64,000 nucleotides of DNA from a virus: IMG/VR virus record IMGVR_UViG_3300031772_000007, positions 29,826 through 93,825 of that record; one strand, given 5' to 3'. Position numbers and translations under genes: made by a program. The first letter of the stretch is position 1; every line of letters begins with the position of its first letter. Below are positions 8,566-36,500 of this stretch, in pieces. The notes below the pieces were generated by a model. That model was not told the origin of the DNA, made no database searches, and saw only the letters and a list, made by a program, of their open reading frames with translations.

Positions 8566-8567
8566 AA

Positions 8568-9424: not shown

Positions 9425-9445
9425 GTCCCTCTCCTTGGAAAGCTA

Positions 9446-9473
9446 CTTTGCCCGGGGCTTACCCGGTTGTCCC
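9446..9473 (-). promoter_or_regulatory. Bipartite promoter-like motif, copy A
   Basis: On the minus strand GGGACAA starts at 9473 and GGGCAAAG starts exactly 20 bases later (9453). The same two boxes with the same spacing recur at five other sites, mostly just upstream of first genes. The start codon of the downstream gene lies 22 bases beyond. Promoter function is inferred from position and fixed spacing. Confidence 0.6.
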
Positions 9474-9486
9474 CTTCGGTGTCCAA

Positions 9487-9846: not shown

Positions 9847-10286
9847 CAGTAATACCCCACGGACTCAGGCTTCCCGCCCAGCCGCGTTACCGCATCCCAC
9901 CGGGTGAACAGCGCGTTAGCTTGGTCCAGACACGCCTCCGTGCTCCCCCGATAGAGCACCTTCCTCACTCGGCGCTTCCGAACCCTGTACCAGTGCGACG
10001 AGAGCCACCCGTCATGCAGCTCCGCTTCGTGGTAGTGGTAGTGCCACCTCGGGCGAACCCAGAGATCAAGCCTGTATCCCTCTGCCAAGACGACCCAAGT
10101 GTTCCTGATGTGGTTCGGCTCCACGGTGAGCCCGAGCTGCGTCCCCACAAAGCGCGTCGCCCCGCCCAACGCGCAGATTTCGAGAAAGCGCCTGCGCGCC
10201 GTGCTCGCTCCCTGCTCCTTGAGCAAGTCCTGCCGCGCCCGCTCGCGCATCACCTGCCACTTCCTGTGCCCCTGCCAGTCGCTCAC
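9846..10286 (-). CDS. Protein of the AxxRLxG family
   Basis: 146 residues from GTG 10286 (GTGA overlap). The middle is aromatic and beta-like (YRLDLWVRPRWHYHYHEAE; GWLSSHWYRVRKRRVRK), then a helix leads to WDAVTRLGGKPESVGYY. The gene order and the final motif place it with its neighbours at 9.5-10.7 kb. Unknown function. Confidence 0.55.
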   Translation of the reverse strand: MSDWQGHRKWQVMRERARQDLLKEQGASTARRRFLEICALGGATRFVGTQLGLTVEPNHIRNTWVVLAEGYRLDLWVRPRWHYHYHEAELHDGWLSSHWYRVRKRRVRKVLYRGSTEACLDQANALFTRWDAVTRLGGKPESVGYY

Positions 10287-10636
10287 ACCACGAACCTTGC
10301 CCCGAGGCGCTTCCGCTGTCCCGTCAGCCGTGCAACCGTCTCCGCAGCCTGAAGGCACTGCCTTCCCACCGCGAACGCTTCCTTCACCGTCAGGCAGGAC
10401 TGCTCCCACCTGACGTGGACGCTTGTGGCTGTCTTCTCGAACACCCGGACAAACCACAGGTGCGAAAGCAATGGCTCCAGCATCTTCTGCACAACCACGT
10501 GATGACGGTCGGTGGTGAGCCCCCGCCACCAAAGCACGTAGAACTCCTTGCAGTACGAAACCGTAACCTCCCCCCAGTAGCACTGGCGGTCGGGAATGCC
10601 CCGCCCGTGGACCGGATCCAGCGGAACTCGCTGCAT
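10283..10636 (-). CDS. Protein of the AxxRLxG family
   Basis: 117 residues. ATG 10636 is preferred because it overlaps the stop of the 31-residue gene upstream (TGATG), a reinitiation arrangement. Beta-rich body (FYVLWWRGLTTDRHHVVVQ; LWFVRVFEKTATSVHVRW), then the helix ECFAVG-type region ending AAETVARLTGQRKRLG, a slightly relaxed version of the shared motif. Unknown function. Confidence 0.55.
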   Translation of the reverse strand: MQRVPLDPVHGRGIPDRQCYWGEVTVSYCKEFYVLWWRGLTTDRHHVVVQKMLEPLLSHLWFVRVFEKTATSVHVRWEQSCLTVKEAFAVGRQCLQAAETVARLTGQRKRLGARFVV

Positions 10637-10731
10637 CACGCCCCCAACCGAAGTGCCGCGTCCTCGATTGCCAGCCACACGAGCGCCACCGCCGCCCAGG
10701 CTGCCCAGAACGCTGCTTCGAGGTGGCTCAC
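10636..10731 (-). CDS. 31-residue membrane micropeptide ending in DAALRLGA
   Basis: GTG 10731 gives VSHLEAAFWAAWAAVALVW and ends IEDAALRLGA. It has one hydrophobic segment long enough to span a membrane and then the shared [DE]AxxRLx[GA] motif as its last residues. The start overlaps the stop of the 38-residue gene (GTGA) and its TGA overlaps the next ATG (TGATG), so it lies precisely in a coupled string. Too short for routine gene finders. Confidence 0.5.
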   Translation of the reverse strand: MSHLEAAFWAAWAAVALVWLAIEDAALRLGA

Positions 10732-10844
10732 GTTCCCCCCGGGGCTCCCACCTTCACGTCGTAGTCCTTCCTGTAGAAGTCAACCCACTTGACCCCGTTG
10801 GGGACGTACACTCCTCGTGCTCGCATGATGTCGTGCAGGCGCAT
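10728..10844 (-). CDS. 38-residue small protein
   Basis: ATG 10844 with a strong GGGGAGGAGAG site about 20 bases below the promoter-like motif at 10864-10891. The product begins MRLHDIMRARGVYVPNGVKW and ends DFYRKDYDVKVGAPGGT. It is the first gene of the transcription unit running to 9487. Unknown function. Confidence 0.5.
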   Translation of the reverse strand: MRLHDIMRARGVYVPNGVKWVDFYRKDYDVKVGAPGGT

Positions 10845-10863
10845 GTCTCTCTCCTCCCCAGAA

Positions 10864-10891
10864 CCTTGCCCGCCGCGCCGCCGGTTGTCCC
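10864..10891 (-). promoter_or_regulatory. Bipartite promoter-like motif, copy B
   Basis: Minus strand GGGACAA at 10891 and GGGCAAGG 20 bases on (10871). It sits just past the terminase stop codon and 20 bases before the start of the 38-residue gene, a natural promoter position. Confidence 0.6.
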
Positions 10892-10892
10892 G

Positions 10893-12449
10893 CTACCGGC
10901 GCACCACGTCCAAGTGGGTCTGCACCGCCTTGAGCGCGCCGAGGCGCACGCCCTCCCGCGCGAACCAGCTCGCCATGAGGCGGTCCCCGGTGTGCGCCCG
11001 CGGGTCATAGAACAGCATCTCGTTCACCCACTCGTAGAGCTGCGGGTGGAGGCTGCCGTCCGTGTTGGGGATGATCCACTTCCGCCCCGCCATCTCCGCC
11101 GCGATGGACTCAATGCCGAATTCAGGGTGCGCCTTGTTCCTGCCCGTCGTGAACGCCCTGATCGGCACCGCGAAGTCCCGCCGTGCGAACTGGATGATGA
11201 AGTCCTGCGCCGCGTTGTTCTCCACGATGCAGATGGAGAAGTAGCGCCGATGGTGGTCGATGATCTTCAGGATGATTTCCGGCCCAGCCCAACGTCCCGC
11301 CTCGACGTTCAACACCTCGCGGTCGCCGTTCGGGTGCGCCGCGATGGTGAACAGGCAGGTGAGGTCCGCGCCGTCCTTCTGTTGCACCGCCAGGTCCACC
11401 CCGGTGTACGTCTTGATGCCGTTCGGTAGCGCCTGGAGCCCGTGGCAGAGCCGCTTCCCATTCCCGCGCTCCAAGCACCAGCCCACCCACTCCTTGCGGA
11501 AGCGCGCTTCCTCATCGCTTCGGGCGACGCAGAGCATCGTGCGCGCGAACTCCAACGGCCCCCGCTCCTCCTTCACCCGCTGGATGCGCTCCATCGGCCA
11601 CCGCTCGGGCCAACGCGGCTGCCCGTCGTCCCCCAGCACCGGGTAGCGCATCGCCACCCACCCTGGGAGCTTCGCCAGCCGGTGGAGGGCGTCATCTGGG
11701 TGGAAGGCGGTCCCAATCACCAGCACCCGCGCCTTCGCCGTGAGACGGGAGAAGAGGGACGCCTGAATCCACTGGAAGCAGTCCTCCCGCATCTTGGCGG
11801 AGCGGGTGTTCTCCGTGTCGAGGAGGTCGTCCACGATGAGGATGTCGATGCGGCTTCCCAGCACGTTGCCGTGGACGCCGAGGGTCTGCACGCTCGGGTC
11901 CTTGCTCTGGTAGGGGCGCGCAATCGTGATGGCACGGCTGGTCCACTGCTCCTTGCCAGGACGAAGCTCGGGGAAGACGGCGTGCAGCTCCGGGCTCGCC
12001 TCGATGTACCGCTTGATGGTGCGGAGGATCTTGTCCGCCTGCCCCGCAGTGTTACTGACAACGGCCACGCGGAGCGTCGGGTCCTGCCCAAGAAGCCAGA
12101 GCGTCCGGGCAATCGCCACCTGCCACGTCTTGCCCGACTCGACCGAACTCCAGATGATAAGCCGGTCGTGCAGCTCCGCCAGCTCGTGCCAGGCGACGTG
12201 GCAGGAGGCTTGGTCCAGCGGGAGCCCCGTCTTCTCGTCCCGCATGACCGCGGTGGAGAAGGCGTCGATGTCAATGCGCGCCGCTTCGACCAGCTCCCGG
12301 TTCAGGAAGGCGTCCGCCTCGGGGTCGAACTCCAGCTCGTCGGGGATGGCGGTCACGGTCGGAGGCATTCCAGCAGGCCAGCCCTGCGCGTCAGCTCTTC
12401 CCAGCCCCCGTTTGAGGATGTTGTTCAGCCCCAGATGTTGGACCAGCAC
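10893..12449 (-). CDS. Terminase large subunit
   Basis: 518 residues, normal for a large terminase, the packaging motor and DNA-cutting subunit. A Walker A-like IIWSSVESGKTWQVA near residue 105, Walker B RIDILIVDDLLD near residue 210, a coupling segment (VLVIGTAFHPDD) and the RNase-H-like nuclease (YTGVDLAVQQKDGAD; ICIVENNAAQDF) occur in order. The first residue of Walker A deviates from the consensus. The chosen start (12449) overlaps the small-subunit gene by about 58 bases; a later start is possible. Confidence 0.92.
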   Translation of the reverse strand: MLVQHLGLNNILKRGLGRADAQGWPAGMPPTVTAIPDELEFDPEADAFLNRELVEAARIDIDAFSTAVMRDEKTGLPLDQASCHVAWHELAELHDRLIIWSSVESGKTWQVAIARTLWLLGQDPTLRVAVVSNTAGQADKILRTIKRYIEASPELHAVFPELRPGKEQWTSRAITIARPYQSKDPSVQTLGVHGNVLGSRIDILIVDDLLDTENTRSAKMREDCFQWIQASLFSRLTAKARVLVIGTAFHPDDALHRLAKLPGWVAMRYPVLGDDGQPRWPERWPMERIQRVKEERGPLEFARTMLCVARSDEEARFRKEWVGWCLERGNGKRLCHGLQALPNGIKTYTGVDLAVQQKDGADLTCLFTIAAHPNGDREVLNVEAGRWAGPEIILKIIDHHRRYFSICIVENNAAQDFIIQFARRDFAVPIRAFTTGRNKAHPEFGIESIAAEMAGRKWIIPNTDGSLHPQLYEWVNEMLFYDPRAHTGDRLMASWFAREGVRLGALKAVQTHLDVVRR

Positions 12450-13362
12450 CCGCCCCTCCTTGCACCAGAATCAATCCCTTGGCCTTCGCCCGCTCCAGCG
12501 CCCGCGCAACCGCTTTCAGCTTGATTTCCCGCTCCTCGATGCTGGAGTCCATGCTCTGCACCCCGATGACCTCGGTGGGCTGCCCCACCCGGAGCCGTTC
12601 CCCTTGGAGAGCCAGGATGATCGTCCGCTCCCCCATCTCCGCCAGGTGCATCATGTCCCTCGCCGTCTTGATGGCTTCCCGCGGAGACAGCTTGGACAGG
12701 TCCCCGAGCGCGGTGTGGAGCTGAGCAGCGATGGTCTGCGCGTCCTTCAGGAGCAGCGCCACGATGGCAGCGGCGGACAGCGCCGCCTTCCGCCCGAACT
12801 TCGCCGCGTTCGCCTCATCCGCCAGCGTCTCCGCGGCGTCCACCTTCGCCTTCACCAGCAGGTCCGCCAGCCGCCGCTTGGCCTCAATCTCCGCCCCCTG
12901 GAGGGTCGCCTGCGCCGCCTTCTGCGCGTCATCCACCTTGGACCGTGCCAGCTCCTCCACCTTGGCGAGCTGCGCCTGCGCGGCATCCAGGGTCGCCATC
13001 GCCTTGGCTTCCGCCACCCGGGCGTTCTCCGCCGCCTTCACCAGCATGTCGGTGGCGTCGATGGCCTCCGTTCGCGCCTGCGCCAACGAGGTGGATAGAA
13101 CGGACTCCACCACTTCCTTCTGCTCCTCAGTGGTGATACCCGCTCGCGCCGCCCGGGCGAGGAGACTGTCCATCTGGAGCTGATCGCGGACGGGAAGTGC
13201 GCCTTGAACGGTCGGCCAGCCCCGCTCGTACAACCGTTTCGCCGTGAGTCGGTCCATCTTGACCCTATCGGCGACCAGTTGGTGATGCACCCCCAGCTCG
13301 CGGTACGCTGCAAGCACCGCGTTGTAGCGTTGGATGGTCCGCGCTCGGTTGCCCCTCGCCAT
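12391..13362 (-). CDS. Probable terminase small subunit / DNA-binding coiled-coil protein
   Basis: 323 residues directly upstream of the large terminase. The N-terminus has a helix-turn-helix-like stretch (YRELGVHHQLVADRVKMDRL then AKRLYERGW), suited to recognising the packaging site. The centre is a long Ala-rich coiled coil (KVEELARSKVDDAQKAAQ). The C-terminus is Gly-rich. It is longer than most small terminases, so identity rests mainly on position and the N-terminal fold. Confidence 0.6.
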   Translation of the reverse strand: MARGNRARTIQRYNAVLAAYRELGVHHQLVADRVKMDRLTAKRLYERGWPTVQGALPVRDQLQMDSLLARAARAGITTEEQKEVVESVLSTSLAQARTEAIDATDMLVKAAENARVAEAKAMATLDAAQAQLAKVEELARSKVDDAQKAAQATLQGAEIEAKRRLADLLVKAKVDAAETLADEANAAKFGRKAALSAAAIVALLLKDAQTIAAQLHTALGDLSKLSPREAIKTARDMMHLAEMGERTIILALQGERLRVGQPTEVIGVQSMDSSIEEREIKLKAVARALERAKAKGLILVQGGAGAGPTSGAEQHPQTGAGKS

Positions 13363-16581: not shown

Positions 16582-16827
16582 TCACGCCTTCTGCCACCGT
16601 GCCTTCTTCAGCACGCCCTTCTTCCGCCGCGGAATCATGTTCATGTAGAGCATGTCCTTCTCGTCGAAGCAGCCGGAGTGGGCCACCATCGCCCCAAGGG
16701 CGACGGACAGCGCCTCCTCGTGTTGCTCCTGCTCGAACGTCTGCGCCTTCCGCGACACGCACTGCATCAGCTCCAGCTTGCGCCGGAGGTTGTCGAATGC
16801 CCCTCGATACGTCAGCTTGCTTCTCAT
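16582..16827 (-). CDS. Small basic protein, unknown
   Basis: 81 residues, ATG 16827 overlapping the radical SAM stop (ATGA). Helical and basic (AFDNLRRKLELMQCVSRKA) with a Lys/Arg-rich end (IPRRKKGVLKKARWQKA). It follows the radical SAM gene in the same operon. Unknown function. Confidence 0.5.
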   Translation of the reverse strand: MRSKLTYRGAFDNLRRKLELMQCVSRKAQTFEQEQHEEALSVALGAMVAHSGCFDEKDMLYMNMIPRRKKGVLKKARWQKA

Positions 16828-18317
16828 GGCCCCTCCAAGTCGAACGCCTCGAACGTCTCCTTCAGCTTGCCCTTCTTCAGCGGACGGTACTGCTCCACGC
16901 GGCAGAACGAGGACGGCCCTACCTTCCCCGCCACCGCGTCCACGTACATCGAGAAGGCTCCGTCCTCGACAGTGTAGAACCACTTCGGAACGTGCGCTGC
17001 CTTCAGCGCCGACTCGCTCTCCCGAGCCAGCGCGGTGTCGATGCCGATGCTACGCGCCCGCGGATAGCCGCCGTCCAGCCGGTCCCCGGCGTCGAGCGCC
17101 AACACCTGCTTCACCCACTCGTCGTAGGAGTACGGCTGGAACGTCTCCGCCCGCCCCTGCCGCTTGAAGCCCAACAGCTTCACCTGCACCTTGCACCGCT
17201 CCGCTTCGGTGAGGATGTCCCCCAGCACCTCCAACGGCGTCGAGCCCATGACGTACTGCGCCGTAAGCCGCCCCTCTAAAAGCCAATCCTGCCCCTTCTC
17301 GTGATAGCCCGCCGCATGGGAGAGAGCTGTGACCTCGTCCGGGCTCGCAACCGTGTACGCGCAGGAGGAGTAGTACGCCATCGCCACTTTCATGTCCCCC
17401 GAGCCGAGATAGTGGATGTCCCGAGTGGTGAAGTTGGCGACCATGCCGTGCTCCCGGCACTCCCTCCCGATGTCGATGAACTTCGGATGCGAGGTGGGCT
17501 CCCCGCCACCCACCGCGATCTCCAGCACGCCCACCCCCGCCAGCTCCTTGATGATGCCCTTGAGCTTCGGGAACGATGCCGTCTCGCCGGTCGGGGTGCT
17601 CCCCTGGTAGCAGTAGGCGCACCCGTTCATGCAGCGGTCGGTGACCTTCAGGTCCACCAGCTCCGGCACCGATGCTCGCCACACCTTCGGGTGGCAGCCC
17701 TCGTCGGCGAACGAGAGGCGCGTCCGTGCGCCCGTCTCCCGGTTGAACAGGACCCAGTAGCCGTACTTAGGGTCCTTCCGCGCCACGATGTTCACCCCCC
17801 GTTGGAAGTCGCTGCCGAAGTCCACCGGAACCCTCTCAACACCCCCCGCCTCAAGGGTTGGGTGCGTGTCCCCGTTGTCGTTCCCCCCGAGAACGGCCAC
17901 CCTGTCGCTCAACACGAAGTCTCGCAGGTCCCGCGCGAACTCCAGATTGGGCTCCTTCTGCGTGCCCACCTGCGCCGGTAGCTTGTCCATCAGGCTTTGG
18001 TGGTCCACGTAGCCCTCGGGCTCCGGCCCGTCCGCCTTCTGCTTCCACTCCAGCACGCCCGGCAGCAAGTCCTCGACGAACCGCCGCGCCATTTCCCTGT
18101 CCGGGTGGAACTGCACCCTGAACACCTCCCAGAACTGGAGCGCCACGTACTTCGCCTTCTCCTCGCGCGACGTGAGCGTGAACATCTCCCACCCAAACTC
18201 GGGGCTGCACCACGCCTCCTCGCGCGCTTCGCCGGGGCGCAGGAAGATGAGGGTGTGATCCGAGCTGCTGTTGTTCGCAAAGCCCAGCCTGACGTTATGA
18301 ATCCTCGCGGTCCTCAA
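16824..18317 (-). CDS. Radical SAM enzyme 1
   Basis: About 497 residues. A radical SAM core carries the 4Fe-4S motif RCMNGCAYCYQGS (CxxxCxxC) near residue 230, followed by ELAGVGVLEIAVGGGEPTSHP, the glycine-rich SAM-binding strand with a GGEPT motif. About 220 residues before the core are extra and not recognised. Radical SAM enzymes generate a 5-prime-deoxyadenosyl radical for difficult rearrangements or methyl transfers. Within this phage it might act in base modification, but it is 2.3 kb from the main cassette, separated by small genes. TTG 18317 has GGGAGG at proper spacing; GTG 18323 is an alternative. Confidence 0.85.
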   Translation of the reverse strand: MRTARIHNVRLGFANNSSSDHTLIFLRPGEAREEAWCSPEFGWEMFTLTSREEKAKYVALQFWEVFRVQFHPDREMARRFVEDLLPGVLEWKQKADGPEPEGYVDHQSLMDKLPAQVGTQKEPNLEFARDLRDFVLSDRVAVLGGNDNGDTHPTLEAGGVERVPVDFGSDFQRGVNIVARKDPKYGYWVLFNRETGARTRLSFADEGCHPKVWRASVPELVDLKVTDRCMNGCAYCYQGSTPTGETASFPKLKGIIKELAGVGVLEIAVGGGEPTSHPKFIDIGRECREHGMVANFTTRDIHYLGSGDMKVAMAYYSSCAYTVASPDEVTALSHAAGYHEKGQDWLLEGRLTAQYVMGSTPLEVLGDILTEAERCKVQVKLLGFKRQGRAETFQPYSYDEWVKQVLALDAGDRLDGGYPRARSIGIDTALARESESALKAAHVPKWFYTVEDGAFSMYVDAVAGKVGPSSFCRVEQYRPLKKGKLKETFEAFDLEGP

Positions 18318-19387: not shown

Positions 19388-19881
19388 AGGTGCCTCGGCT
19401 TCGGCGGTCGGGGCTCCCTCCCCTGAAGACGGTCCACCGATTCCCGAGAGGCCAACTCCATGCGCTTCGCCTCGTAGGCGTCGGCCAGCACCTTGCGACA
19501 GACCGGGTCCGCTACCCTGTAGACGTGCTCCCCCGCGGGGAACAGCTTGCCGAAGCGCCAAAGCTGCCCGTACTCCTCCACGAAGCCCGACCCGGCGAAG
19601 CGCTTCGTCTGCTCGAAGATGCCGAGCTGTAGGAGAGTCCGCTGGATGCGCCATCGGGCGGATCTGCCCTCCCGCGCCCCCGTCACCGGGATGAAGAACT
19701 CGTCAGGCTCCACCTTCTCGTCCACGAGGTTCACCGTCAGCTTGTCCAGCGCCTCCCCCGCGTCGGTGGTGACGTAGAGCGCCCCGTTCCCGTTGCTGTA
19801 ACGCCCCCCGTGAAGAACACAGGGATCCTCATCGAGATAGAAGCGGAACCCGTCCGCCGCCTTGAAGGGGTCCACCCTCAC
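19384..19881 (-). CDS. AxxRLxG-family protein (relaxed motif)
   Basis: 165 residues from GTG 19881. An early strand-rich portion is followed by RWRIQRTLLQLGIFEQTKRF and FVEEYGQLWRFGKLFPAGEH, a helix-turn-helix-like pattern akin to the 15121-15393 product. ESVDRLQG near the end is a relaxed motif before a basic PRPPKPRHL tail. Possibly DNA-binding. Confidence 0.5.
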   Translation of the reverse strand: MRVDPFKAADGFRFYLDEDPCVLHGGRYSNGNGALYVTTDAGEALDKLTVNLVDEKVEPDEFFIPVTGAREGRSARWRIQRTLLQLGIFEQTKRFAGSGFVEEYGQLWRFGKLFPAGEHVYRVADPVCRKVLADAYEAKRMELASRESVDRLQGREPRPPKPRHL

Positions 19882-20477
19882 CGCCCGCCCCCGTACCAGA
19901 TAACGAGGACGCTCGGGAAGCTGGCGGAGTCCCGCTTCACTCCCTCGGGGTTCCCGGGGCACCCGAAGGTGATGCGCCCTGGGAGGAACCGCGTCGTCAC
20001 CGAATTCCACGGCTTGTCCCGCGAGTGCTCGATGTGCTCCTGCCACCACTTCCTGTCCGTCCAGCTCGGGAGCAACGCGACCACCAGACAGCAGTGCGCC
20101 ACAATCTCCTTCCGCGCCTTCTCCAGCCACGCCCCGATGTTGGAATAGGGCGGATTGAGGAACACCCGCGCACCCCTCCACGACTGGCGGAGCCCGTTCT
20201 TCTTCTTGGTGAAGTACCGGCGGCACTTCGCGCTCTCCCTGGAAGCGCACGGGTCCAGGGTGAAGTGGAACTCCGCGTCGAGCTTCTTGTAGAACTCCGT
20301 CGGCGTGAACTGATCGTCGAGCGACTTGGTAGGCGGAGCGTTCCGGCAGGCGTCCTCCGGCAGCCACCCCATCTGCCCCGTCTCCGGGTCAACCGTCAAA
20401 GCCAAGCTGACGCGCCGCTTCGAGCGCAACCGCTTCTTCAACGTCCGCCGCTTCGTAACAGGCATAGAATTTCCCAT
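19878..20477 (-). CDS. Phage-type DNA N6-adenine methyltransferase
   Basis: 199 residues. DEFHFTLDPC-like FHFTLDPCASRESAKCRRYF, WRGARVFLNPPYSNIGAWLEK and CCLVVALLPSWTDRKWW follow the order of phage Dam-type adenine methylases. NPPY is the catalytic motif that binds the flipped adenine, and FTLDPC is the position of the D-containing motif. Methylation may protect phage DNA from host restriction, alongside the proposed thymine modification. ATG 20477 (GAGGAAAC site) is preferred; the gene overlaps its upstream neighbour by about 89 bases. Confidence 0.85.
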   Translation of the reverse strand: MGNSMPVTKRRTLKKRLRSKRRVSLALTVDPETGQMGWLPEDACRNAPPTKSLDDQFTPTEFYKKLDAEFHFTLDPCASRESAKCRRYFTKKKNGLRQSWRGARVFLNPPYSNIGAWLEKARKEIVAHCCLVVALLPSWTDRKWWQEHIEHSRDKPWNSVTTRFLPGRITFGCPGNPEGVKRDSASFPSVLVIWYGGGR

Positions 20478-20607
20478 CGCGTTTCCTCGCCGCGCAGATA
20501 GCTGCCCCGCCCCGCCGCCGGGCAAGAGCGCCCAGCGCCAGGGCCAACGTCTCCTCGTCGATGTCGTACATGATGGAGGCTTCCAAGAGGGTGAGCAGCT
20601 TCTTCAC
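20389..20607 (-). CDS. Small helical protein, unknown
   Basis: 72 residues from GTG 20607. Helical start (KKLLTLLEASIMYDIDEETL), and an end VEEAVALEAARQLGFDG that resembles the shared [DE]AxxRLxG helix with R/Q changes. A promoter-like motif lies only eight bases before this start, so an internal ATG at 20571 could be used instead. Confidence 0.45.
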   Translation of the reverse strand: MKKLLTLLEASIMYDIDEETLALALGALARRRGGAAICAARKRDGKFYACYEAADVEEAVALEAARQLGFDG

Positions 20608-20614
20608 CTGGAAA

Positions 20615-20642
20615 CCTTGCCCGGACGCAGGCTCATTTTCCC
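20615..20642 (-). promoter_or_regulatory. Bipartite promoter-like motif, copy E
   Basis: Minus strand GGGAAAA at 20642 and GGGCAAGG 20 bases on (20622). The upstream box has one change from GGGACAA. It lies at the end of the radical SAM 2 gene and would serve the Dam/small-protein operon. The very short distance to GTG 20607 makes this copy less certain. Confidence 0.4.
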
Positions 20643-22042
20643 TTCGGCAGCTCCGCGCCACCCGGAAGGGCTCCGGCCATCTGCCGCCCGAACTCCTCCA
20701 ACCCACTCGCCGCAACCCCGAACTTCTCTAGCTCCGTGCGGGTTTCGTACAGTCCCCGCTTGTAGTCGAAGAAGTAGACGAGGTCGTTGTTGGAGTCCAC
20801 CGCCGCCGGAACGAGAACCCGGTCGAAGAAGTTGTAGACCCCCATCGCGCTCTTGGTCGGGATGTTCCACGCCCCGCGCACCCGGTCGAAGACCGACTCC
20901 TGCCGGAGCTTCCGCATCAGGCGGTCCTTCCCGCGCACCCCGTCGTCCTGCAACGGGTCCAACGTCACCCGCGCGTCACCGCTAATGTCCGCGAAGCGCA
21001 CGCTGCCCCGTCGGAAGGCGATTCGGATGGCCTCGGTGAATGTACCCCGCGTCACCTGCCCGCCCTCCAAGTCCTCCGGGGAAAGCCCACAGCAAGTGGA
21101 GGCGTTGGTCAGCTCCTTGTAGTCAGGGTCCGAGCAAGCGAACCGCACCCCGCGCTTCTCGCACTCCTCCCACATCCCGTAGACGTAAGGCTTCTTCCAG
21201 TGCCGCGACAGGCGAGGCTGCCCGCGAGCGTGCCGAGACATCGCCTTGTAGATGGCCGTGAAGTCGAAGTCCGCCGCCTTGCCCATCCGGTCGAAGTACC
21301 GCCTGGAGAACTCGAAGTCCGGGAAGGGGATGCACAGAAACTCGGTGGACAGCGCCTTCGCTCCGGCGTCCGCCGCCGCCGTCAACAGCTCCCGCCAGGT
21401 TCCGGTCGAGATGCCGGGGCAGAAGGGGCGGAAGCGCAGAATCGTCCTGATTCCCCGCTTCGACAGCGCCTCCACCGTTTTGATGCGGTCCTGCGGGCTC
21501 GGGGCGCTGACCTCGATCTTCCGCGCGATCTCCGGGTCGTAGGTGATGATGCTCGACTGGAAGCCCCATCTGCCCGCGTTCGCCGCGAACACCTCCAGAA
21601 GCTCCTCGTCCTGCCAGAACGCGCCCTTCGAGCTGAAAAGCACGGGCCATTTGATGTCGGTGAGGAAGCGGAGAACTTCCAGCGTCTTCTCTCGGTACTT
21701 CCCGAGCGCGTAGTGATCGAAGGCGTCCGCCAGCCCGCCCCAGTGGAGGATGAGATGCTGGTCAACAAACGCCTGCCGGTGCGCCTTCTGGTCCTTCGAC
21801 AAGTCCTCGGGCGCTCCCTGGAACAACCGCCTGAACCGGGGGATGTTGATGAACGACAGGTCCGGCAGCCCGCCGTAGTCCTGATCGTCCTCGCCGTGCG
21901 GAACGCGCGAGCTGTCCTTGATGGGTCCGGCAAAGCAGTAGAGGCACCCGTAGCTGCACCGGCTGATGGCGTCGAACGTGAAGGGCAGCCCGCACTCGTA
22001 ATACTCGCTGGAGAGGCGCGGGGAGTTGTAGCAATCAGCCAC
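20633..22042 (-). CDS. Radical SAM enzyme 2, linked to base-modification genes
   Basis: About 469 residues. The 4Fe-4S motif RCSYGCLYCFAG (CxxxCxxC) lies near residue 30, unusually early, after CYNSPRLSSEYYECGLPFTF. The core continues with HLILHWGGLADAF and TILRFRPFCPGISTGTW. The overall shape resembles the spore-photoproduct-lyase-like radical SAM group. It lies immediately downstream of two ParB-like genes and the kinase/transferase/PLP operon. In known thymidine hypermodification pathways a radical SAM isomerase acts after amino-acid transfer, so that is the leading hypothesis. GTG 22042 is assumed; an earlier ATG at 22072 is possible. Confidence 0.85.
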   Translation of the reverse strand: MADCYNSPRLSSEYYECGLPFTFDAISRCSYGCLYCFAGPIKDSSRVPHGEDDQDYGGLPDLSFINIPRFRRLFQGAPEDLSKDQKAHRQAFVDQHLILHWGGLADAFDHYALGKYREKTLEVLRFLTDIKWPVLFSSKGAFWQDEELLEVFAANAGRWGFQSSIITYDPEIARKIEVSAPSPQDRIKTVEALSKRGIRTILRFRPFCPGISTGTWRELLTAAADAGAKALSTEFLCIPFPDFEFSRRYFDRMGKAADFDFTAIYKAMSRHARGQPRLSRHWKKPYVYGMWEECEKRGVRFACSDPDYKELTNASTCCGLSPEDLEGGQVTRGTFTEAIRIAFRRGSVRFADISGDARVTLDPLQDDGVRGKDRLMRKLRQESVFDRVRGAWNIPTKSAMGVYNFFDRVLVPAAVDSNNDLVYFFDYKRGLYETRTELEKFGVAASGLEEFGRQMAGALPGGAELPKGK

Positions 22043-22682
22043 CGAGCACCACCCGCGCGAGCGCGCTGCCATCCAAGGTGGGCTCCTTCGCCGCCGCGTT
22101 GTCCAGCCGGTACTTCCCCAGCACCTCCAGCGCCGCCGTCGCCGTCGGGAAGACGACCGGAACGTTCAGCGGATCCGGGGCTGCCTCGGGCTCCGCTGGC
22201 GACAACCCCGCGCCCACCGCCTCCTCGACCCGCCCGAGCGATGTCTTGAGCACTTCGATCTCATCCGCAGAGAAGCCCGTCACCCCCTGGAACCACTTGC
22301 CGTCGTCCCCGTTCTCCGCCAGCCACGAGCTGACGTAGGAGGACAGAGCTTGCTGGTCCCAATCCGCGCTGATCTGATTCAGCGCGAGGACGAGAGCCCT
22401 CGCCTTCTGGTCGTCGGGGAGGTCCACGACAACAACCTCCGCCTTGGGCAGCCCAGCTTCCTTCATCACGTCGTAACGGTGGTGCCCGTTGATGATCTCG
22501 TAGCGGTCCGGCGCTCCCGGGGATTCCCGAACGATGATGGGCTGCACCACCCCCAGCTCCTCCATCGAGGTACGCAGGTGCGCCCGCATCGCATCGCCCA
22601 TGACCCTCGGGTTGCCGAACTTGAACGGGTCCAGGCTCGACACCGGGACCGTCTTCAACGCCTTCAGCCGTGACTGAATCAT
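22035..22682 (-). CDS. ParB/Srx-like protein 1
   Basis: 215 residues. LKALKTVPVSSLDPFKFGNP is the ParB-like first strand/box, and RYEIINGHHRYDVMKEAGLP is the conserved GHHR phosphate-binding box of the ParB/sulfiredoxin/SerK superfamily; LPDDQKARALVLALNQISAD follows. A C-terminal helical part lacks the usual ParB helix-turn-helix. The next gene encodes a close paralogue, and both lead into the modification operon. They might bind nucleotides or act on DNA; the chemistry is not inferable. ATGA coupling on both sides. Confidence 0.75.
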   Translation of the reverse strand: MIQSRLKALKTVPVSSLDPFKFGNPRVMGDAMRAHLRTSMEELGVVQPIIVRESPGAPDRYEIINGHHRYDVMKEAGLPKAEVVVVDLPDDQKARALVLALNQISADWDQQALSSYVSSWLAENGDDGKWFQGVTGFSADEIEVLKTSLGRVEEAVGAGLSPAEPEAAPDPLNVPVVFPTATAALEVLGKYRLDNAAAKEPTLDGSALARVVLGG

Positions 22683-23371
22683 TGCCCCTCCAGGAACTTC
22701 GCCAGAGCCCCGCCGTCGATGGCGTCCGCCCTCAGAGTCCCGAAGCGGGTGCCCAGCCTGAACTTCCCCAGCACCGCGTCCGCCTCCTCCCGGGTGGCGA
22801 ACTGCGCCTTCAACACCTTCGGCTGGTTCGCGGCGACAGCCTCCTCCGCCATCTTCGCCACGAGATCGCTCGGGTCCTTCTCCGGTGCCTCCGAGAGCTG
22901 TTGATTCGTGGCGTCGATGGTCCCCGCCGACAGCACCTCGATCTCGTCCCCCGAGAAGCCTGTTACCCCCTTGAACCACTCCCCGCCCGCCGTGTTGTCG
23001 TTGAGCCACGCCGAGACGTAGTTCGACAGCGCGCTGTAATCCCACTCCGCGCCGATCTGGTTCAGGGCCAGCACGAGCGCCCGTGCCTTCCGGTCGTCCG
23101 GCAGGTCCACCACCACCGCCTCGATCTCCGTCGCCCCCGAGTCCTTCAGCACCCCGTAGCGATGGTGCCCGTTCAGAATCTCGTAGCGCCCCTTCGTCCG
23201 GGGGCTCGGTCGGACGACGATGGGCTCCACCACCCCCATCTCGGTGAGAGACTGCTTCAGCGTCTCCGTCATCCGGTCCGTCATCTTGCGCGGGTTCCCG
23301 AACGCGAACGGGTCCACCGCGCCGATGGCGATGCGCTTCAACGCCTTCAGCTTCGACTCGATGTTGCTCAT
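22679..23371 (-). CDS. ParB/Srx-like protein 2
   Basis: 230 residues, paralogue of the adjacent gene: SKLKALKRIAIGAVDPFAFG, RYEILNGHHRYGVLKDSGAT and DRKARALVLALNQIGAEW align in order, and both share GVTGFSGDEIEVLS-like text. The C-terminus adds DAVLGKFRLGTRFGTLR. Tandem duplication at this site is unusual and suggests a heterodimer or two substrates. Confidence 0.75.
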   Translation of the reverse strand: MSNIESKLKALKRIAIGAVDPFAFGNPRKMTDRMTETLKQSLTEMGVVEPIVVRPSPRTKGRYEILNGHHRYGVLKDSGATEIEAVVVDLPDDRKARALVLALNQIGAEWDYSALSNYVSAWLNDNTAGGEWFKGVTGFSGDEIEVLSAGTIDATNQQLSEAPEKDPSDLVAKMAEEAVAANQPKVLKAQFATREEADAVLGKFRLGTRFGTLRADAIDGGALAKFLEGQ

Positions 23372-23910
23372 GTCCCCTCCTGCCTCAGAAACTCCCTGAG
23401 CGACCGCTCCAGAACCTCGGGCACTCGCCGGGCATCCAGCTCGACCCTATCCCCTTCCGGGAAGGTTTCCCAGAAACGGCGAGACTTCGTCTCCCGCCCC
23501 TTCACCCACGAGGCGTTCTGCTTGCTCCCACGGGTGTCCCTGCGCGCCTGCGCCTCCTCCGGTGGGAGCGTCAACAGCGCGCACACCAGCCGGATGTTCG
23601 GGGCGTAGGGCAGCGAACGGAAGAAGCTCACCGGGAGCGCGTTGCTGAACCTGTCCCCGTCGAACAGCGTCAGCTCCGCGCGCATCGCCAGGTGCGTCGT
23701 CCAGAAGTTCAGCGCCTCCGCCGCCCCGTTGTAGGGCACGGTGTCCGCCCCATCGAACGGCCCGCCCGCGTAGTGCCCCGCGGCAACGATGCGCTGCCCG
23801 ATGGTCCACTTCGGCTTCGGGTTGAGGCGACTGAGCGGTTCGAGGAGCCTCCGCGCCAGCGTCGTCTTGCCCACCCCCGGCGTCCCCACCAACCAAAGTA
23901 CGGTCTTCAC
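23368..23910 (-). CDS. P-loop kinase, probable 5-hydroxymethyl-dU DNA kinase
   Basis: 180 residues. The N-terminus has Walker A WLVGTPGVGKTTLARRLL (residues 6-23), then GHYAGGPFDGADTVPYNGAA and ELTLFDGDRFS, the latter a DGD element of kinases. The fold is a small P-loop nucleotide kinase. Next to an amino-acid:DNA-transferase-like gene, the most likely role is phosphorylating 5-hydroxymethyluracil in DNA, the activating step of thymidine hypermodification in phages such as ViI and M6. A free nucleotide or dNMP kinase is the alternative. Confidence 0.65.
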   Translation of the reverse strand: MKTVLWLVGTPGVGKTTLARRLLEPLSRLNPKPKWTIGQRIVAAGHYAGGPFDGADTVPYNGAAEALNFWTTHLAMRAELTLFDGDRFSNALPVSFFRSLPYAPNIRLVCALLTLPPEEAQARRDTRGSKQNASWVKGRETKSRRFWETFPEGDRVELDARRVPEVLERSLREFLRQEGT

Positions 23911-25037
23911 TTCTGCGCCCTCCTCACCTCATCGTTGAAGTCGTTGGCAAAGCAGCCCCACTCCTTGTCCATCATGATCACCTGTCCGGTCAGCCGGTAG
24001 TGGTTCATCTTGCGAGGACAGAGCCCCGGGTCCTTGGGGTTGTCCTCCAGCCGCAGGTGCTCCGGCAGGCATTCCTTCCGCGCGTCCCAGAACAGATGCA
24101 ACCGTTCCCCCCATGCCTCCTCGGTCTTCTTCAGCCGGAGGTAGAGCATGTCGTTGTAGACGTTCGGGTAGCGTCGGTTGACCCGGTGCCAGCCCTTGTA
24201 CGTACAGAGGGTGCTCTCCATCGTGAAGTAGCCCACGTCCCGGTAGAAGCTCTCCCCCGCCGCGCGGACCTTCATCTCCTCCAACAGCTCCGCCGCCTCC
24301 TTCTCCAGCCAGCGCAGGACCGCGGGGCTGTAGGTGCCGTCAAAGCTCGTATTGTCGTCGTGCCAGTCCAGGTCGTCCCGGCCCAACACCTTGCAGAGCC
24401 CATTCCGGTGACTCTTGCTGCCCTGCATGTCGTCGAGAAAGAGCTGATCGCAGTCGATCCTCACCCCGTTGATGCGTAGGTACTCCGCGTAGCTGAACGA
24501 ACTCAACCGCCCGAAGTAGACGAAGAAGGTGTTGATCGCCTGCCAGAGCTGTCGGAAGTTGGTGCGCTCGTCCGCCGGGGTCAGCCGATTGAAGAACTCC
24601 TCTTGCGAGCGCCCGCCCAACAGCGTGACGTAGTTCTGAACGCAGGTGAGGAACTTGGTCTTAAAGTACCGCCGGTCGGTGTCGAACTCCAACCGCGTGT
24701 AGTTCTCCGCGAACCACCGCTTCATCCGGTCGAAGTCCACCCCCACGAGAGGGAATTCCCGGAAGATGAGCCAGCTCGTCGGCGGGTGCTGCGTGTTCCC
24801 GTTGATGAAGGCGAACCACAGCCGTTGCTCCGTGCTCCACCCCAGCCGGTCTGCCAGGTAGGGAAGAACGTAATACACCCCCCCTGGATGAGAACGGTAG
24901 CGAAGGTGAAACTCCCAGAACCGAAGGAAGACCTCCCGGCGGTAGCGGGACTCACGGAAGTCCGTGCCCACGCGGAGCGCCGTCTCCTCTGTCTGCCTGT
25001 GGAGGGCGCAGTAGCGCCCCGGTTCCGCCGTCTTCAT
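23907..25037 (-). CDS. Amino acid:DNA transferase-like protein (aGPT-PPlase-type)
   Basis: 376 residues, mostly helical with many Trp/Tyr/Phe, no nucleotide-binding loop. RFWEFHLRYRSHPGGVYYV, LGWSTEQRLWFAFINGNTQH, FLTCVQNYVTLLGGRS, YAEYLRINGVRIDCDQLFL and a final Cys-containing LCPRKMNHYRL resemble the phage proteins described as alpha-glutamyl/putrescinyl-thymine pyrophosphorylases, shown in ViI/M6-type pathways to replace the activated phosphate on hydroxymethyl-dU with an amino acid. The gene is sandwiched with four-base overlaps between the kinase and the PLP enzyme, which is the strongest support. Confidence 0.65.
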   Translation of the reverse strand: MKTAEPGRYCALHRQTEETALRVGTDFRESRYRREVFLRFWEFHLRYRSHPGGVYYVLPYLADRLGWSTEQRLWFAFINGNTQHPPTSWLIFREFPLVGVDFDRMKRWFAENYTRLEFDTDRRYFKTKFLTCVQNYVTLLGGRSQEEFFNRLTPADERTNFRQLWQAINTFFVYFGRLSSFSYAEYLRINGVRIDCDQLFLDDMQGSKSHRNGLCKVLGRDDLDWHDDNTSFDGTYSPAVLRWLEKEAAELLEEMKVRAAGESFYRDVGYFTMESTLCTYKGWHRVNRRYPNVYNDMLYLRLKKTEEAWGERLHLFWDARKECLPEHLRLEDNPKDPGLCPRKMNHYRLTGQVIMMDKEWGCFANDFNDEVRRAQK

Positions 25038-26077
25038 GGTTCCCCCAAGGCTCCTCGCATCGCGGCGAGCGTCGGGCGCGACCCGACAATCCAGAACAGC
25101 GCCTTCCCGCTCCCCCAGAAGTGGACGAACTCCTTGGCGTGCTTCCGCAGGTACGTCATCACCTTGCCCTCGTAGGTGGGGTGGAAGTCGATGCCGCCGT
25201 AGGTGAAGGGCATCTCGTCCTGATAGCTGGCGAAGTGCGTCGCATGCAAGTCGTAGTGAACCAGCCGGTAGGGAGCGCGCTTCGTCGGTTGGAAGCTCGC
25301 CGCCTGATCCGGGTCGTTCTTGTAGTCCCGGTTGAACAACGCCCGAATCTGGATGCCCGAGAACTGCTCGATGGCGCGAAGCCGGTCCTCAATCCAGACC
25401 AGCTTCGTCGGCCCTACTCCAAACAGGACGACCTCCCGAAGCCGCGGGGGCAGCCTGCGCGCGATGCCGTACAGCACCGAGACACAGCTATTGCAGCTCC
25501 CCGCGGGCATGTAGATGGCCTCCACGTCATCCGGGATGTTGAGAACCTGCTCGCTTCCGAGTCGGTGGAAGGCGTCAATCTCCGCAGGGTCGTCGTCCAC
25601 CGTGATGCCGTACTTCAAGACGTAGTGCCCGGGGTGCTCCTTAGCCAGCTCCGCCACCGCCCGTTGCAGCGCCGGATTGTAGGCCACCGGGTTGTACCTA
25701 AAGCGGGCTCCGAGCGCCCGAGCGATGGCGACGTTCTCATGCTTCCCCGCCGCCTTTTCCGTCGTCGCACCGATGACCAACAGCGTCTCCAACCCAAAGT
25801 GCCGAGCAACCGCGGTGCCCATGCAGAGTTGCGGGCTCTTGACGCTCGCCCCGGAGAGCAACCCCTTCGCCCCCGCCGCCGCTGCCCGGCTCACAAGCCA
25901 GATGCACTGGCGGAGCTTCGCCCCGTTGATGCCTCCGTACCCGAGAGGCGCGAAGCGGTCCTCCCGCTTGAACCGGATCGCCCCCATTTCCTCCACCGGG
26001 GTCCGGGTAAGCAGGTGCTTCTCCCACCGCGACTGCTCCCGGTCCAAGCTCAACGTGTCGAAGACGGACCCTCTCAC
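25034..26077 (-). CDS. Fold-type II PLP-dependent enzyme
   Basis: 347 residues from GTG 26077. FKREDRFAPLGYGGINGAK (about residues 37-54) matches the pattern around the PLP lysine in ACC-deaminase/D-cysteine desulfhydrase/threonine-synthase-like enzymes, with Lys54 the candidate Schiff-base residue. Further support: GLLSGASVKSPQLCMGTAVA (substrate loop) and AIYMPAGSCNSCVSVLYGIA (phosphate-binding glycines). Phage thymidine-hypermodification pathways use PLP enzymes on the DNA-bound amino acid, so the substrate may be a DNA base rather than a free metabolite. Confidence 0.8.
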   Translation of the reverse strand: MRGSVFDTLSLDREQSRWEKHLLTRTPVEEMGAIRFKREDRFAPLGYGGINGAKLRQCIWLVSRAAAAGAKGLLSGASVKSPQLCMGTAVARHFGLETLLVIGATTEKAAGKHENVAIARALGARFRYNPVAYNPALQRAVAELAKEHPGHYVLKYGITVDDDPAEIDAFHRLGSEQVLNIPDDVEAIYMPAGSCNSCVSVLYGIARRLPPRLREVVLFGVGPTKLVWIEDRLRAIEQFSGIQIRALFNRDYKNDPDQAASFQPTKRAPYRLVHYDLHATHFASYQDEMPFTYGGIDFHPTYEGKVMTYLRKHAKEFVHFWGSGKALFWIVGSRPTLAAMRGALGEP

Positions 26078-26346
26078 TTTCGCAGCTCCGCGTCGCGCAC
26101 TCCACGAACCCCCAAGGACAGCAACGCCCTCCACACCTTCATCCTGCCCCACCGCTCCTCGTTGGTGATGGCGTACCAGGCACCCCCACGGGGACCGAGG
26201 GGCTTGTAGGTGATCGCCCCGATGGAGAGCCCCTTCTTGATCATCGTGTACGAGAGACAGGGAACGTCATACCACTCCTGCGCGGGGCGGTAGTTCCCCA
26301 CCCCGAACTGCTTCAGAATGGCGTCGAAGTCGGGCTCGTACTCCAT
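26074..26346 (-). CDS. Small protein in the modification operon, unknown
   Basis: 90 residues between the Rad50-like gene and the PLP gene, with TGATG and GTGA overlaps. YRPAQEWYDVPCLSYTMIKK and GAITYKPLGPRGGAWYAITN are strand-rich; MKVWRALLSLGVRGVRDAEL is helical. Could be an accessory of the base-modification genes by position. Confidence 0.5.
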   Translation of the reverse strand: MEYEPDFDAILKQFGVGNYRPAQEWYDVPCLSYTMIKKGLSIGAITYKPLGPRGGAWYAITNEERWGRMKVWRALLSLGVRGVRDAELRK

Positions 26347-29062: not shown

Positions 29063-29701
29063 CTACCCCGCCCGGTGCTCACGAGCCGCCGCCACCGCTG
29101 CGTTGATCTGCGCCGCCGTCTCCTCCTGCGTCCCCCGGGCGTTCACCACCACCCATCGAGTGGGCTCCACCGCACGCTGCCGGTCCCACAGCTCCCGATA
29201 GAACCCAGCCACTTGCGGCATGAAGCTCGCCGCCTTCTCGTAACGGTCCCGGCGGTCCGGTCGGCGCTCCGCAGAGTCCTTCTCGTCCACGTCGAGCAGG
29301 ATGAACAAGTCCGGCTGCGGGAGCCATCGGTGCAACCCGATCAGGTAATCCCCGTCGAGCCCGTCCGCCCGCCCGTAGGCATAGCCGCTCGGCCAGTAGC
29401 GATCCAGCACCACGTTCCCGCGAGATGCCACCTCGAACAGCTCGGTGGCGACCTCCATCCGATTGGCGACCTGGAGAGCCTGAAACACGAGAGGGTCCAG
29501 CAGATTTCCGTACTGCGCCGACCACTCCCCCAATTTCGCCGGTTGCGCCCGCCAAAGCCTATCGAGGTGCGCGTAGATGAGCTTCCCAGTGATGGTTTCC
29601 TTGTTCGGGAACTTCCAGACCCGCGCGCCCATGCGCTTCGCCAGCAGCTCGGTGTGCGTCCCCTTGCCGCAGGCGTCGATGCCCTCAAGACAGATGATCA
29701 C
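29063..29701 (-). CDS. tmk: Thymidylate (dTMP / modified dUMP) kinase
   Basis: 212 residues from GTG 29701. The P-loop is CLEGIDACGKGTHTELLA (residues 4-21) in the form EGxDxxGKxT, followed by DRYWPSGYAYGRADG, the DRY/nucleoside-binding motif, and DLFILLDVDEKDSAERR with the lid arginines RPDRRDRYE. This is a thymidylate kinase-type protein that makes dTDP from dTMP. In phages with modified thymine it may accept hydroxymethyl-dUMP; that substrate is inference. Confidence 0.88.
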   Translation of the reverse strand: MIICLEGIDACGKGTHTELLAKRMGARVWKFPNKETITGKLIYAHLDRLWRAQPAKLGEWSAQYGNLLDPLVFQALQVANRMEVATELFEVASRGNVVLDRYWPSGYAYGRADGLDGDYLIGLHRWLPQPDLFILLDVDEKDSAERRPDRRDRYEKAASFMPQVAGFYRELWDRQRAVEPTRWVVVNARGTQEETAAQINAAVAAAREHRAG

Positions 29702-33581: not shown

Positions 33582-36500
33582 CTAATTCAGCTCCACCGTC
33601 TCCATGCTGCCCCACCGCGTACCCGCCTTGCAGTCCACTTCCAGAGGCACGAAACTTGTAGCCCACGGGTATGACACCATCTGCTCGCGCGCCGCTTGTG
33701 CCGTCTCCTTCCAAGTCTTCTCGGGACACAGCAGCATGATGGAGTCGTGAATCGGCAGGATGACCTCGGCGTCCATCTTGCCCGCCTCAATCAGATTGAC
33801 CAGACGCACGATACTCGACACGCAGAAGTCGCTCGCCGTGCCCTGAATGGGGCTGTTGATGGAACCGTTGCGCGCCGTGGATGCCGCGTGCGAGCCCTCC
33901 TCCGACTCGTCCGCGATCCTCCACAGAGGACGCCACCGCGCTCGCTGCCCTTCCCACTCGGTCCAACAGCCCCCGTTCGCCTTGGCGTAGGAGAGAGCCG
34001 TCTTGCTCCACCTGCCGAAGTTGATGAACGCGCCGAAGATGGCTGCCCGGATGGCTGCCGCCGCCTCGACCGGAATGCCCAGCTCCCGAGCCAGAGTACG
34101 ATCCGTCTTACCGTAAGCGAGCCCGAAGTTGAACGCCTTGGCTCCAGTCCGGTGAACCTTCGTGACCTGCTCCGGCGGGATGCCCCAGGCGAGCTTGCAG
34201 ATGAGCTTCGCCGTGCCCAGGTGGAAGTCCACCCCCGAGCGGAACAGGTCTGCCATCGCCCGGTCCTGCGAGAGCAACGCCGCGATCCGCAGCTCCAGTT
34301 GGGAGTAGTCCAGCTCGATGAGTACCTTGCCGTGCGGCGCAACGAAGCAGTCCCGGGCTCGCTTGCCGTCCTCGGTGTCTGCCCGCGGGATGTTCTGAAG
34401 GTTCGGGTCGCTACAGTTGTGGACCAGTAGCTCCCCGGCGATGAAGCACTCCTCACCCTCCACAGTGAGATCGTAAACGTCATCTCGCTCGGTCAAGTGC
34501 TCTACCGCCACTACTTCGTGATTATTCGACAACCGCGCTGTCCTAGCGTGTGCCGCCCCTTCAAGAATCTGCTCCCGCCGCCCTTCTCGGTTCCAACGCT
34601 TCAGCTCCTCCAAGTCAAAGCCTGCCCGTTCGACATGCCCCTTGAAAGAGTTGAAGTCGTACCCCCCCGCCTTTGCCGCCTTCGAGACAGCCCACGCATT
34701 CTCCCGAAGTAGCCACTCAACGTAAGATGCAGGAAGCCCCAGCCACCGCCCATTGCTAGATCCCACACGAGCCGAAAGGCACCCTTCCCGCCACATCCGC
34801 TGCATGCTCTCCGAGCGCGCCGCCCGCACTTCGGCGGAGGTCTGCTCCCCGTGCAAGCGTAGGTGTTCAGAAGCCCCAAGACCTGCAAGGTTTTCAGGTC
34901 GGTTGTCTAGCTTGTTACCGTTAATGTGGTGAACGTGCTCCGGCGCTTTTCCGTACATCTGCTCGTAGATGAAACGGTGCTCACGCGAGATTTCTTCAGC
35001 CCCCGTGGGCCACAACCGCGCGTACCCATCCACTTCGCCCCTGGCTAAAGCGTAAACGCGGTCGCCCGGCTGAAGATCCCCCGCCTCCCTCCATTTCCCA
35101 GTGGTAAGCCGTACCCGATGCTCAGGCGTGAGGTCAAGATACCCCTCGTGACGATGGCCCTGCCCCCGCCATTTAACCCGAACCAGCGCGCACTTCCTAC
35201 CAGCCCGCCATGCGCGCAAAACACGCCGCAGCACAAGGCGTCCCCCGGAGTCGTAGCAGTACGCCAAATCACCAAACCGCACCTGCTCAATAGGTACCCC
35301 TTTGGGAAAGCGCGACACATCCCGCGCGACATCCACAAGGGTGCCCTTCCGAATGCAAGAAGTCCTGCCACTCCGCGCGCCATCGGTGTGGATGCTTGGA
35401 TGCACCCTTCCGTCCGACCGGACGCAGCCCTCCCACTCCGCGACGTACTCGACCAGCTTCTTGTAGTGCCGGTACTCCAAGATGAAGCCGGGGAGGGAGT
35501 GTTCCGACTTGAGCTGAAGAAGCGCATCCTCCTCCGTGCTCGGCTGCCCCGTCTCCGTCTTGTAGGGAGCGTCCAGCTTGAGCTGATCGTACAGGAGCCG
35601 AGCGATCTGCTGTGGGCTGTCCGGGTTCAGCTCCCCGTACTTCTGGCACTGCGCCATCGCCCCATCCAACCCCTGCTGTGCAAGCTGTTGAAACAGAGAG
35701 CCCGCCTGCACGTCGTAGGGGACGCCCCACTCCTCGACCCGCTGGATGGCAACCGCCCCCGGCAACACCACCTTGTCCCAGATGCGCTGCCGCTCGGGGC
35801 TCCGGTGAAGCTGGAGACTGTAGAGCGAAGCCAGCCGCGCGGTCGTCAGCGCGTCGCGGCAGACGTACCGGAGCAGCTTGTCCCGGTCCATGAAGGCGTA
35901 GGCAATCGCCTTCGGGTTGCCCGCGTACTTCTCCACGTCGAACCCGAGCCGAGCCGAGGTATCCACCCGGTCCGCGAAGTCGAAGCCACCCTGCTTCGAT
36001 TGCCTCCGCTGGCGTTCCTTTTCCGCCATCTCCTTGATGCGCCGCTCGATGAGGACCAACGCCTGCTTCGCCTCCCCCTTGTGCTCCCCCATCCCCACCA
36101 GCTCGGCCATGTCCTCCAGGTTCCCCCGCGCGTCCGGGTCCAGGAGCTTGCGCTCAAGGCGGGTGTCGAACTTGATGCCGCGAACGCGGACCTTCTTCGT
36201 CCACCACATGCAGTGTTGATCGTACTTGACGTTGGAGCCGCCCTTCGGAACCTCCGCATCCTCTAGCACCCGCGCAAAGGGCTCGAACCTCGCCGGGTCG
36301 TTCATCCCCTCCTCGTCCCAAACCCACACCACGTCACGCCCGAGGGGTGCCGCCGCCGTCGTGAGGATGCGAAAGCCTGGGTTCCACAAGTGCCCTGCCG
36401 TCTCGCAGTCGAAGGCGAACCCCTCACCCCCGCACAAGTCCTGCACCGCCTGCGCCACGTCCGCTGGGGTCGTCACCACGCTGGCGAAGTAGTCCGGGCG

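Follow-up and report, generated by a model that had tools for sequence, protein, structure and literature searches.

A phage thymidine-hypermodification-type cassette with a radical SAM enzyme in the position of TET, a candidate oxygen-independent source of 5-hydroxymethyluracil

The window analyzed here, a 64,000-nt stretch comprising the final 64 kb (bases 29826–93825) of a 93825-bp viral contig (IMG/VR record IMGVR_UViG_3300031772_000007), contains six consecutive minus-strand genes, spanning positions 26077 to 20633, that almost certainly form a cassette of the thymidine-hypermodification type. In this cassette a radical S-adenosylmethionine (SAM) enzyme, designated rSAM, stands where related cassettes have the dioxygenase TET, and the self-closing contig carries neither TET nor a ThyA-type hydroxymethylase, which is the main anomaly of the system and one that a preliminary description of the window had overlooked. 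Based on the sequence comparisons below, we propose, with a probability of roughly 0.6, that enzymes of this rSAM family take the place of TET and form the 5-hydroxymethyl handle by an oxygen-free route. In its more specific form, to which we give about even odds, the family would oxidize the 5-methyl group of thymine (perhaps of 5-methylcytosine, 5mC) in DNA without O2, and so would do the work of TET anaerobically, without being homologous to it, and supply both kinase/transferase and glycosyltransferase pathways.

Read 5' to 3' on the coding strand, the six genes encode a fold-type-II pyridoxal phosphate (PLP)-dependent enzyme of the ACC-deaminase/PALP-like type (25034–26077, 347 aa, GTG start), an amino acid:DNA transferase (ADDT, or aGPT-PPlase2; 23907–25037, 376 aa), a P-loop kinase of the 5-hydroxymethyluracil (5hmU)-DNA-kinase type (23368–23910, 180 aa, Walker A motif GTPGVGKT), two ParB/Srx-like proteins that each have a GHHR motif, ParBa (22679–23371, 230 aa) and ParBb (22035–22682, 215 aa), and, directly after ParBb, rSAM (20633–22072, 479 aa). 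All six open reading frames (ORFs) were confirmed as real, and the families named for them in the preliminary description were borne out by matches to Pfam, PHROGs and other profiles. The four-base overlaps reported there were found at four of the five junctions (PLP/ADDT, ADDT/kinase, kinase/ParBa and ParBa/ParBb), but ParBb and rSAM overlap by 38 nt, or by 8 nt if rSAM starts at the GTG at 22042.

The family assignments were derived from searches of the window proteins against Pfam, PHROGs, NCBIfam and PDB profiles. ADDT matched PF18724 (E 9e-22) and phrog_3271 (E 6e-82), and its profile matched the solved ADDT 25qc (E 1.5e-59) and the glycinyltransferase 8z2m (1e-21); of the residues conserved across 68 relatives, only 6 differ in it. 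The PLP enzyme matched phrog_3650 (E 6e-97) and PF00291 and is PALP/ACC-deaminase-like, with K54 as the predicted Schiff-base lysine. The kinase was weak in Pfam and matched phrog_800 (E 4e-9), the public name of which, "terminase small subunit", is misleading and is also borne by gp054, the kinase of the phage M6 cassette; against a hidden Markov model (HMM) built from related cassettes the kinase scored 4e-38, and its P-loop is kept. Both ParB-like proteins matched PF02195 (ParB_N; E 3e-12 for ParBa and 9e-13 for ParBb) and the cassette ParB HMM (2.8e-22 and 1.4e-21, respectively). The families of the kinase, ADDT, PLP enzyme and rSAM thus support the cassette type that had been suggested for these genes, and the kinase and the 376-aa protein, whose membership of other families would have spoken against it, both fall in the families expected. 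The kinase, ADDT and tailoring (PLP) enzyme that characterize ViI/M6/Tonitrus-type cassettes are all present, and the kinase and ADDT retain nearly all conserved residues, but a known 5hmU source, either a ThyA-type hydroxymethylase or TET, is absent from the contig. We therefore describe the window cassette as one that would work like ViI/M6/Tonitrus-type hypermodification cassettes with a different first step.

No TET was found in the window contig with a local HMM from 60 sequences, alignment A3 or PF12851, and no ThyA-type enzyme with a local HMM, alignment A5 or PF00303. These absences concern a phage genome that is very probably complete, because the two ends of the contig share a 155-bp direct terminal repeat (window 63846–64000) that is identical at 154 of 155 positions and occurs nowhere else in the contig. 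To our knowledge, the routes to 5-hydroxymethylpyrimidines in phage DNA have so far been limited to two: hydroxymethylation of the nucleotide by a ThyA-type enzyme, and O2-dependent oxidation by TET/JBP. Since the conserved residues of the kinase and ADDT are kept and neither TET nor ThyA is encoded, a working pathway needs another 5hmU source, and rSAM, the sole catalyst in the operon without an assigned step and placed right after ParBb, becomes a candidate for it.

The position of rSAM is best appreciated from relatives of the cassette. In IMG/VR, 80 loci were recovered with an ADDT 50–61% identical to that of the window and were scored with locally built HMMs. Their recurring order is ParB-(ParB)-TET-ADDT/PLP-kinase in a single cassette, and the next recognized gene after the last ParB was TET in 41 of 46 loci (adjacent in 38), which is where the window has rSAM. 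The recurrence of such a gene set across dozens of independent phages shows that its presence in the window is not due to chance. TET was replaced by a ThyA-type hydroxymethylase in five IMG/VR loci and in Glutamicibacter phage Montesquieu, which has an ADDT homologue, PLP and kinases. Every locus with adequate flank contained TET, the commoner of the two, or a ThyA-like hydroxymethylase, and the loci without both end close to the ADDT gene; a window-type rSAM was found in none of the loci recovered with ADDT. Adjacent twin ParBs occur in 24 related loci, so such twins are usual in these cassettes and do not, as had been thought, set this phage apart. Other ADDT homologues of isolated phages came from mycobacteriophages, for example Frederick (46% identity), in which the neighbors are ParB, a TET-matching oxidoreductase and a kinase, and from Ackermannviridae/Vibrio phages (28–29%). 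In the ADDT tree, the window protein branches among ADDTs of cassettes with TET or thymidylate synthase (TS), apart from those of other rSAM cassettes, which implies that rSAM joined ADDT at least twice. Scans of viral contigs with single proteins returned one relative of the kinase and none of the PLP enzyme.

Single-sequence searches with the window rSAM in isolated phages, viral contigs and genome contigs gave no or only weak relatives, and homologues were instead obtained from DNA-motif scans and an alignment query, which yielded 95 loci, from uncultured phages, that form 79 clusters at 90% identity. Within 3.5 kb of these 79 rSAM genes were ParB in 50, TET-associated glycosyltransferase (TAGT) in 31, kinase in 23, ADDT in 17, GNAT in 12, a SAM synthetase gene in 10 and TET in 2, with the TAGT assignment confirmed by PF20691 for example loci. 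A TAGT, kinase or ADDT was beside 55 of the 79 (TAGT 31, kinase/ADDT 25, both in one) and in none of a comparison set of 24 other viral rSAM loci. One locus, L240, has ADDT-kinase-ParB-ParB-rSAM in the same order as the window, and two, L208 and L254, have ParB-ADDT-kinase followed further on by rSAM, with GNAT also in L254. On the rSAM tree there are at least 17 partner switches between TAGT and kinase/ADDT, based on SH-aLRT support only and with a long window branch. This switching points to what a glycosyltransferase and a kinase need in common, namely a hydroxylated base, and elsewhere it is TET that supplies the hydroxyl.

It is possible in principle that an unrecognized phage or host enzyme makes 5-hydroxymethyldeoxyuridine (5hmdU) before replication, helped by a dTMP-kinase-like protein, and that rSAM adds a further decoration. 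Such a gene is present (29063–29701, minus strand; PF02223, E 2e-18), although its membership of the cassette is uncertain; it possibly has a role in nucleotide supply. Many phage genes have no family, and cassettes of the hydroxymethylase type do exist. We nonetheless regard a nucleotide-level origin as improbable, as a ThyA-type gene was found neither by three profiles in the contig nor by A5 in 38 other rSAM records (0 of 39 in all, with positive controls detected), and rSAM occupies the TET slot beside ParB. Across whole rSAM records TET was likewise rare (3 of 54, positive controls detected).

The rSAM protein matched PF04055 (E 1e-5) and the PA0069/Rv2578c (SplB-like) family (E 5e-14); it is a radical SAM protein without the TET/JBP 2-oxoglutarate (2OG)-Fe(II) fold and its HxD...H...R motif. 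The CX3CX2C motif for the [4Fe-4S] cluster corresponds to C39, C43 and C46, of which the first two are present in 82 of 83 homologues and C46 in all 83. Also invariant are C27, C327 and C328 (83 of 83), which are candidates for a catalytic role or for ligands of a second cluster, while C247 is less conserved (68 of 83). In the AlphaFold model (pLDDT 79.8, pTM 0.84), the closest solved fold was that of spore photoproduct lyase (Foldseek top matches 4k9r, 4fhg and 4fhc, E 9e-6 to 1.5e-5); a PDB match to multicystatin was dismissed as a chance repeat match. Like the proposed activity of rSAM, the lyase reaction is carried out by a radical SAM enzyme on thymine in DNA, and it proceeds via a thymine allylic radical (PMC5368176). 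The two proteins are only 12–13% identical, and C27 and C327-C328 set the phage family apart. The lyase repairs spore photoproduct, with Cys141 as hydrogen donor; for the phage enzyme, its place in a cassette speaks against a role in repair. The broad chemistry of radical SAM enzymes, the unexplained C27 and C327-C328 and the pairing of rSAM with C5- or N4/N6-methyltransferases in some loci (G032 and G034) would also fit an enzyme that equips the base with some other handle for TAGT or kinase, for example an extra carbon, a thiol or an aldehyde, so that the final bases would be new. We consider this a long shot, given that the retained conserved residues of the kinase and ADDT suggest the usual hydroxymethyl substrate.

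Comparison with characterized systems also bears on when rSAM would act. The combination of kinase, ADDT, PLP enzyme and rSAM is shared with Pseudomonas phages M6 and SN1, which contain 5-(2-aminoethyl)deoxyuridine (5-NedU), and the M6 enzyme (gp53) is remotely similar to that of the window (9e-9 in a search with the family HMM; blastp 1e-4, 30% over 76 aa). The preliminary description had placed rSAM downstream, as in M6. In an M6-type reading, the main rival of our proposal, it would follow the transferase and isomerize an N-linked to a C-linked amino acid, which the PLP enzyme would then decarboxylate to a 5-NedU-like base, the 5hmdU coming from an unrecognized source. The distribution of the family fits an enzyme that acts first better: 31 of the 79 homologues neighbor a glycosyltransferase, and kinase/ADDT is present as well in just one of these 31 loci, so that there would usually be no amino acid to isomerize. 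In addition, M6 has a hydroxymethylase, which none of the 39 rSAM records has, and the window kinase, ADDT and PLP enzyme have no blastp match to those of M6, the PLP enzyme instead matching Ackermannviridae (1e-70). An M6-type order of steps is therefore unlikely in our view.

The window shares with ViI-like phages (Ackermannviridae) an ADDT of the same family (28–29%) and a PLP enzyme (40–42% over 98–100% of the length). These phages carry 5-(2-aminoethoxy)methyl-dU (5-NeOmdU; PMC6449724, PMC11721090) and are thought to begin with 5hmdU made as a nucleotide (PMC6449724); in contrast, the window lacks a nucleotide-level 5hmdU gene, has rSAM and ParBs, and has its genes in one operon. Closer in layout are mycobacteriophage cluster B and Rhodococcus phage Tonitrus, in which ParB, ADDT (46% to Frederick gp3) and kinase form one block (PMC11955845); those cassettes have TET, whereas the window has rSAM in its place and a PLP enzyme. 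The phage TET/JBP 2OG-Fe dioxygenases and the rSAM family share a position beside ParB and their partners, kinase/ADDT and TAGT, but are non-homologous, and TET depends on O2 and 2-oxoglutarate, whereas the expected requirements of rSAM are SAM and a reductant.

Under our proposal that rSAM supplies the handle, the whole operon would carry out post-replicative thymidine hypermodification, with rSAM standing in for the usual 5hmU source. The ParB-like proteins would load on or target the DNA, and rSAM would then abstract a hydrogen from the 5-methyl of thymine in DNA; the resulting thymine allylic radical would be oxidized and hydrated to 5hmdU with no O2, which would be a new step. As expected from family membership and the established pathway, the kinase would phosphorylate 5hmdU in DNA, ADDT would exchange the phosphate for an amino acid, and the PLP enzyme would tailor that amino acid, probably by decarboxylation. 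Because ADDT, PLP enzyme and kinase are of the ViI/mycobacteriophage type and not, by blastp, detectably of the M6 type, the likeliest single product, tentatively named, is a ViI-like, serine-derived base such as 5-(2-aminoethoxy)methyl-dU. The earlier suggestion that the final base may be new thus gives way to a known base as the first candidate, although the base may also be new; the novelty would lie in the route, not necessarily in the product.

Several points weigh against this proposal. We know of no radical SAM enzyme that hydroxylates the methyl of a DNA base, and the M6 rSAM, a remote relative, reportedly acts downstream in a phage that has a hydroxymethylase (work of Lee et al. in 2022). 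Most rSAM records are fragments, and in 24 of the 79 loci neither TAGT nor kinase/ADDT is in the available stretch. Three records, G041, G061 and G074, carry TET and rSAM together, which rules out a strict replacement of one by the other. The window rSAM is itself a long branch (2.59 changes per site, nearest homologue 37%) that deviates at 4 of 38 near-invariant columns, and the fold match to spore photoproduct lyase is modest (TM 0.41/0.55; TM to target 0.54–0.55). Finally, enzymes of the TAGT family can also take as acceptor a sugar that the base bears beforehand, as in T6, and add a second one to it (PMC13390438), so a TAGT beside rSAM does not prove a fresh hydroxyl.

Individual loci of the family showed further features. 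SAM synthetase N-domain genes encoded by the phage lie beside rSAM at L254:3860-4699 and L264:8770-9561, as if the phage supplied its own SAM. An rSAM homologue is next to a C5-cytosine methyltransferase and a PLP enzyme in L154 (G032, 8759–12912) and next to an N6/N4 methyltransferase in L146 (G034, 10757–13026); judging from these neighbors, its substrate may sometimes be 5mC. The 99.6-kb phage contig of L148 (G035, 8494–13272) encodes ParB, a glutamine amidotransferase, ADDT, a possible amidoligase, kinase and rSAM, with no TET and no hydroxymethylase in the contig, and possibly makes a different final base. In the phage contigs L165 and L168, in-frame TGA codons interrupt the rSAM and TAGT genes, and when 13 TGA sites of the L165 rSAM were compared with the family, its consensus residue was Gly at 7 of them, a code-25-like recoding. 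One family member sits in a contig of a metagenome-assembled genome (MAG) of the Lachnospiraceae, an anaerobic family. A scan of Lachnospiraceae gave matches in 93 of 397 genomes, with a full-length family member only in the MAG itself; the remaining matches look like general SplB-like proteins and were rejected.

Elsewhere in the window, a gene for a 90-aa protein without a Pfam match (26074–26346, minus strand) shares 4 nt with the PLP gene in an overlap, and its membership of the cassette is uncertain. Just downstream of the cassette is a Dam-type adenine methyltransferase (19878–20525, minus strand; PF05869, 5e-26), followed by a second radical SAM protein (16824–18317, minus strand) that has a MoaA/SPASM-like core behind a 220-aa N-terminal extension and is outside the cassette rSAM family. 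A third ParB-like protein (45607–46257, minus strand) lies outside the cassette, and a gene at 33582–37148 (minus strand, 1188 aa) encodes a Family-A-like DNA polymerase with an intein-like insert, as judged from its sequence only. Many small unrelated ORFs at 13.8–20 kb and 38–45 kb have in common a C-terminal motif like A.EA..L.D.VRRL.G, a possible tag or common domain. An Rfam scan of 12–34 kb gave no match and a promoter scan found none.

A literature search found no description of this rSAM family or of a replacement of TET, though the main papers of the field lay outside that search. With a single enzyme exchanged and the rest of the operon conserved, the proposal can be tested directly. 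If it is correct, the rSAM family would catalyze a reaction on DNA that is new for an enzyme and might be turned into a base-conversion tool, and its independence from O2 would account for the ability of phages of anaerobes to use TET-style post-replicative hypermodification.

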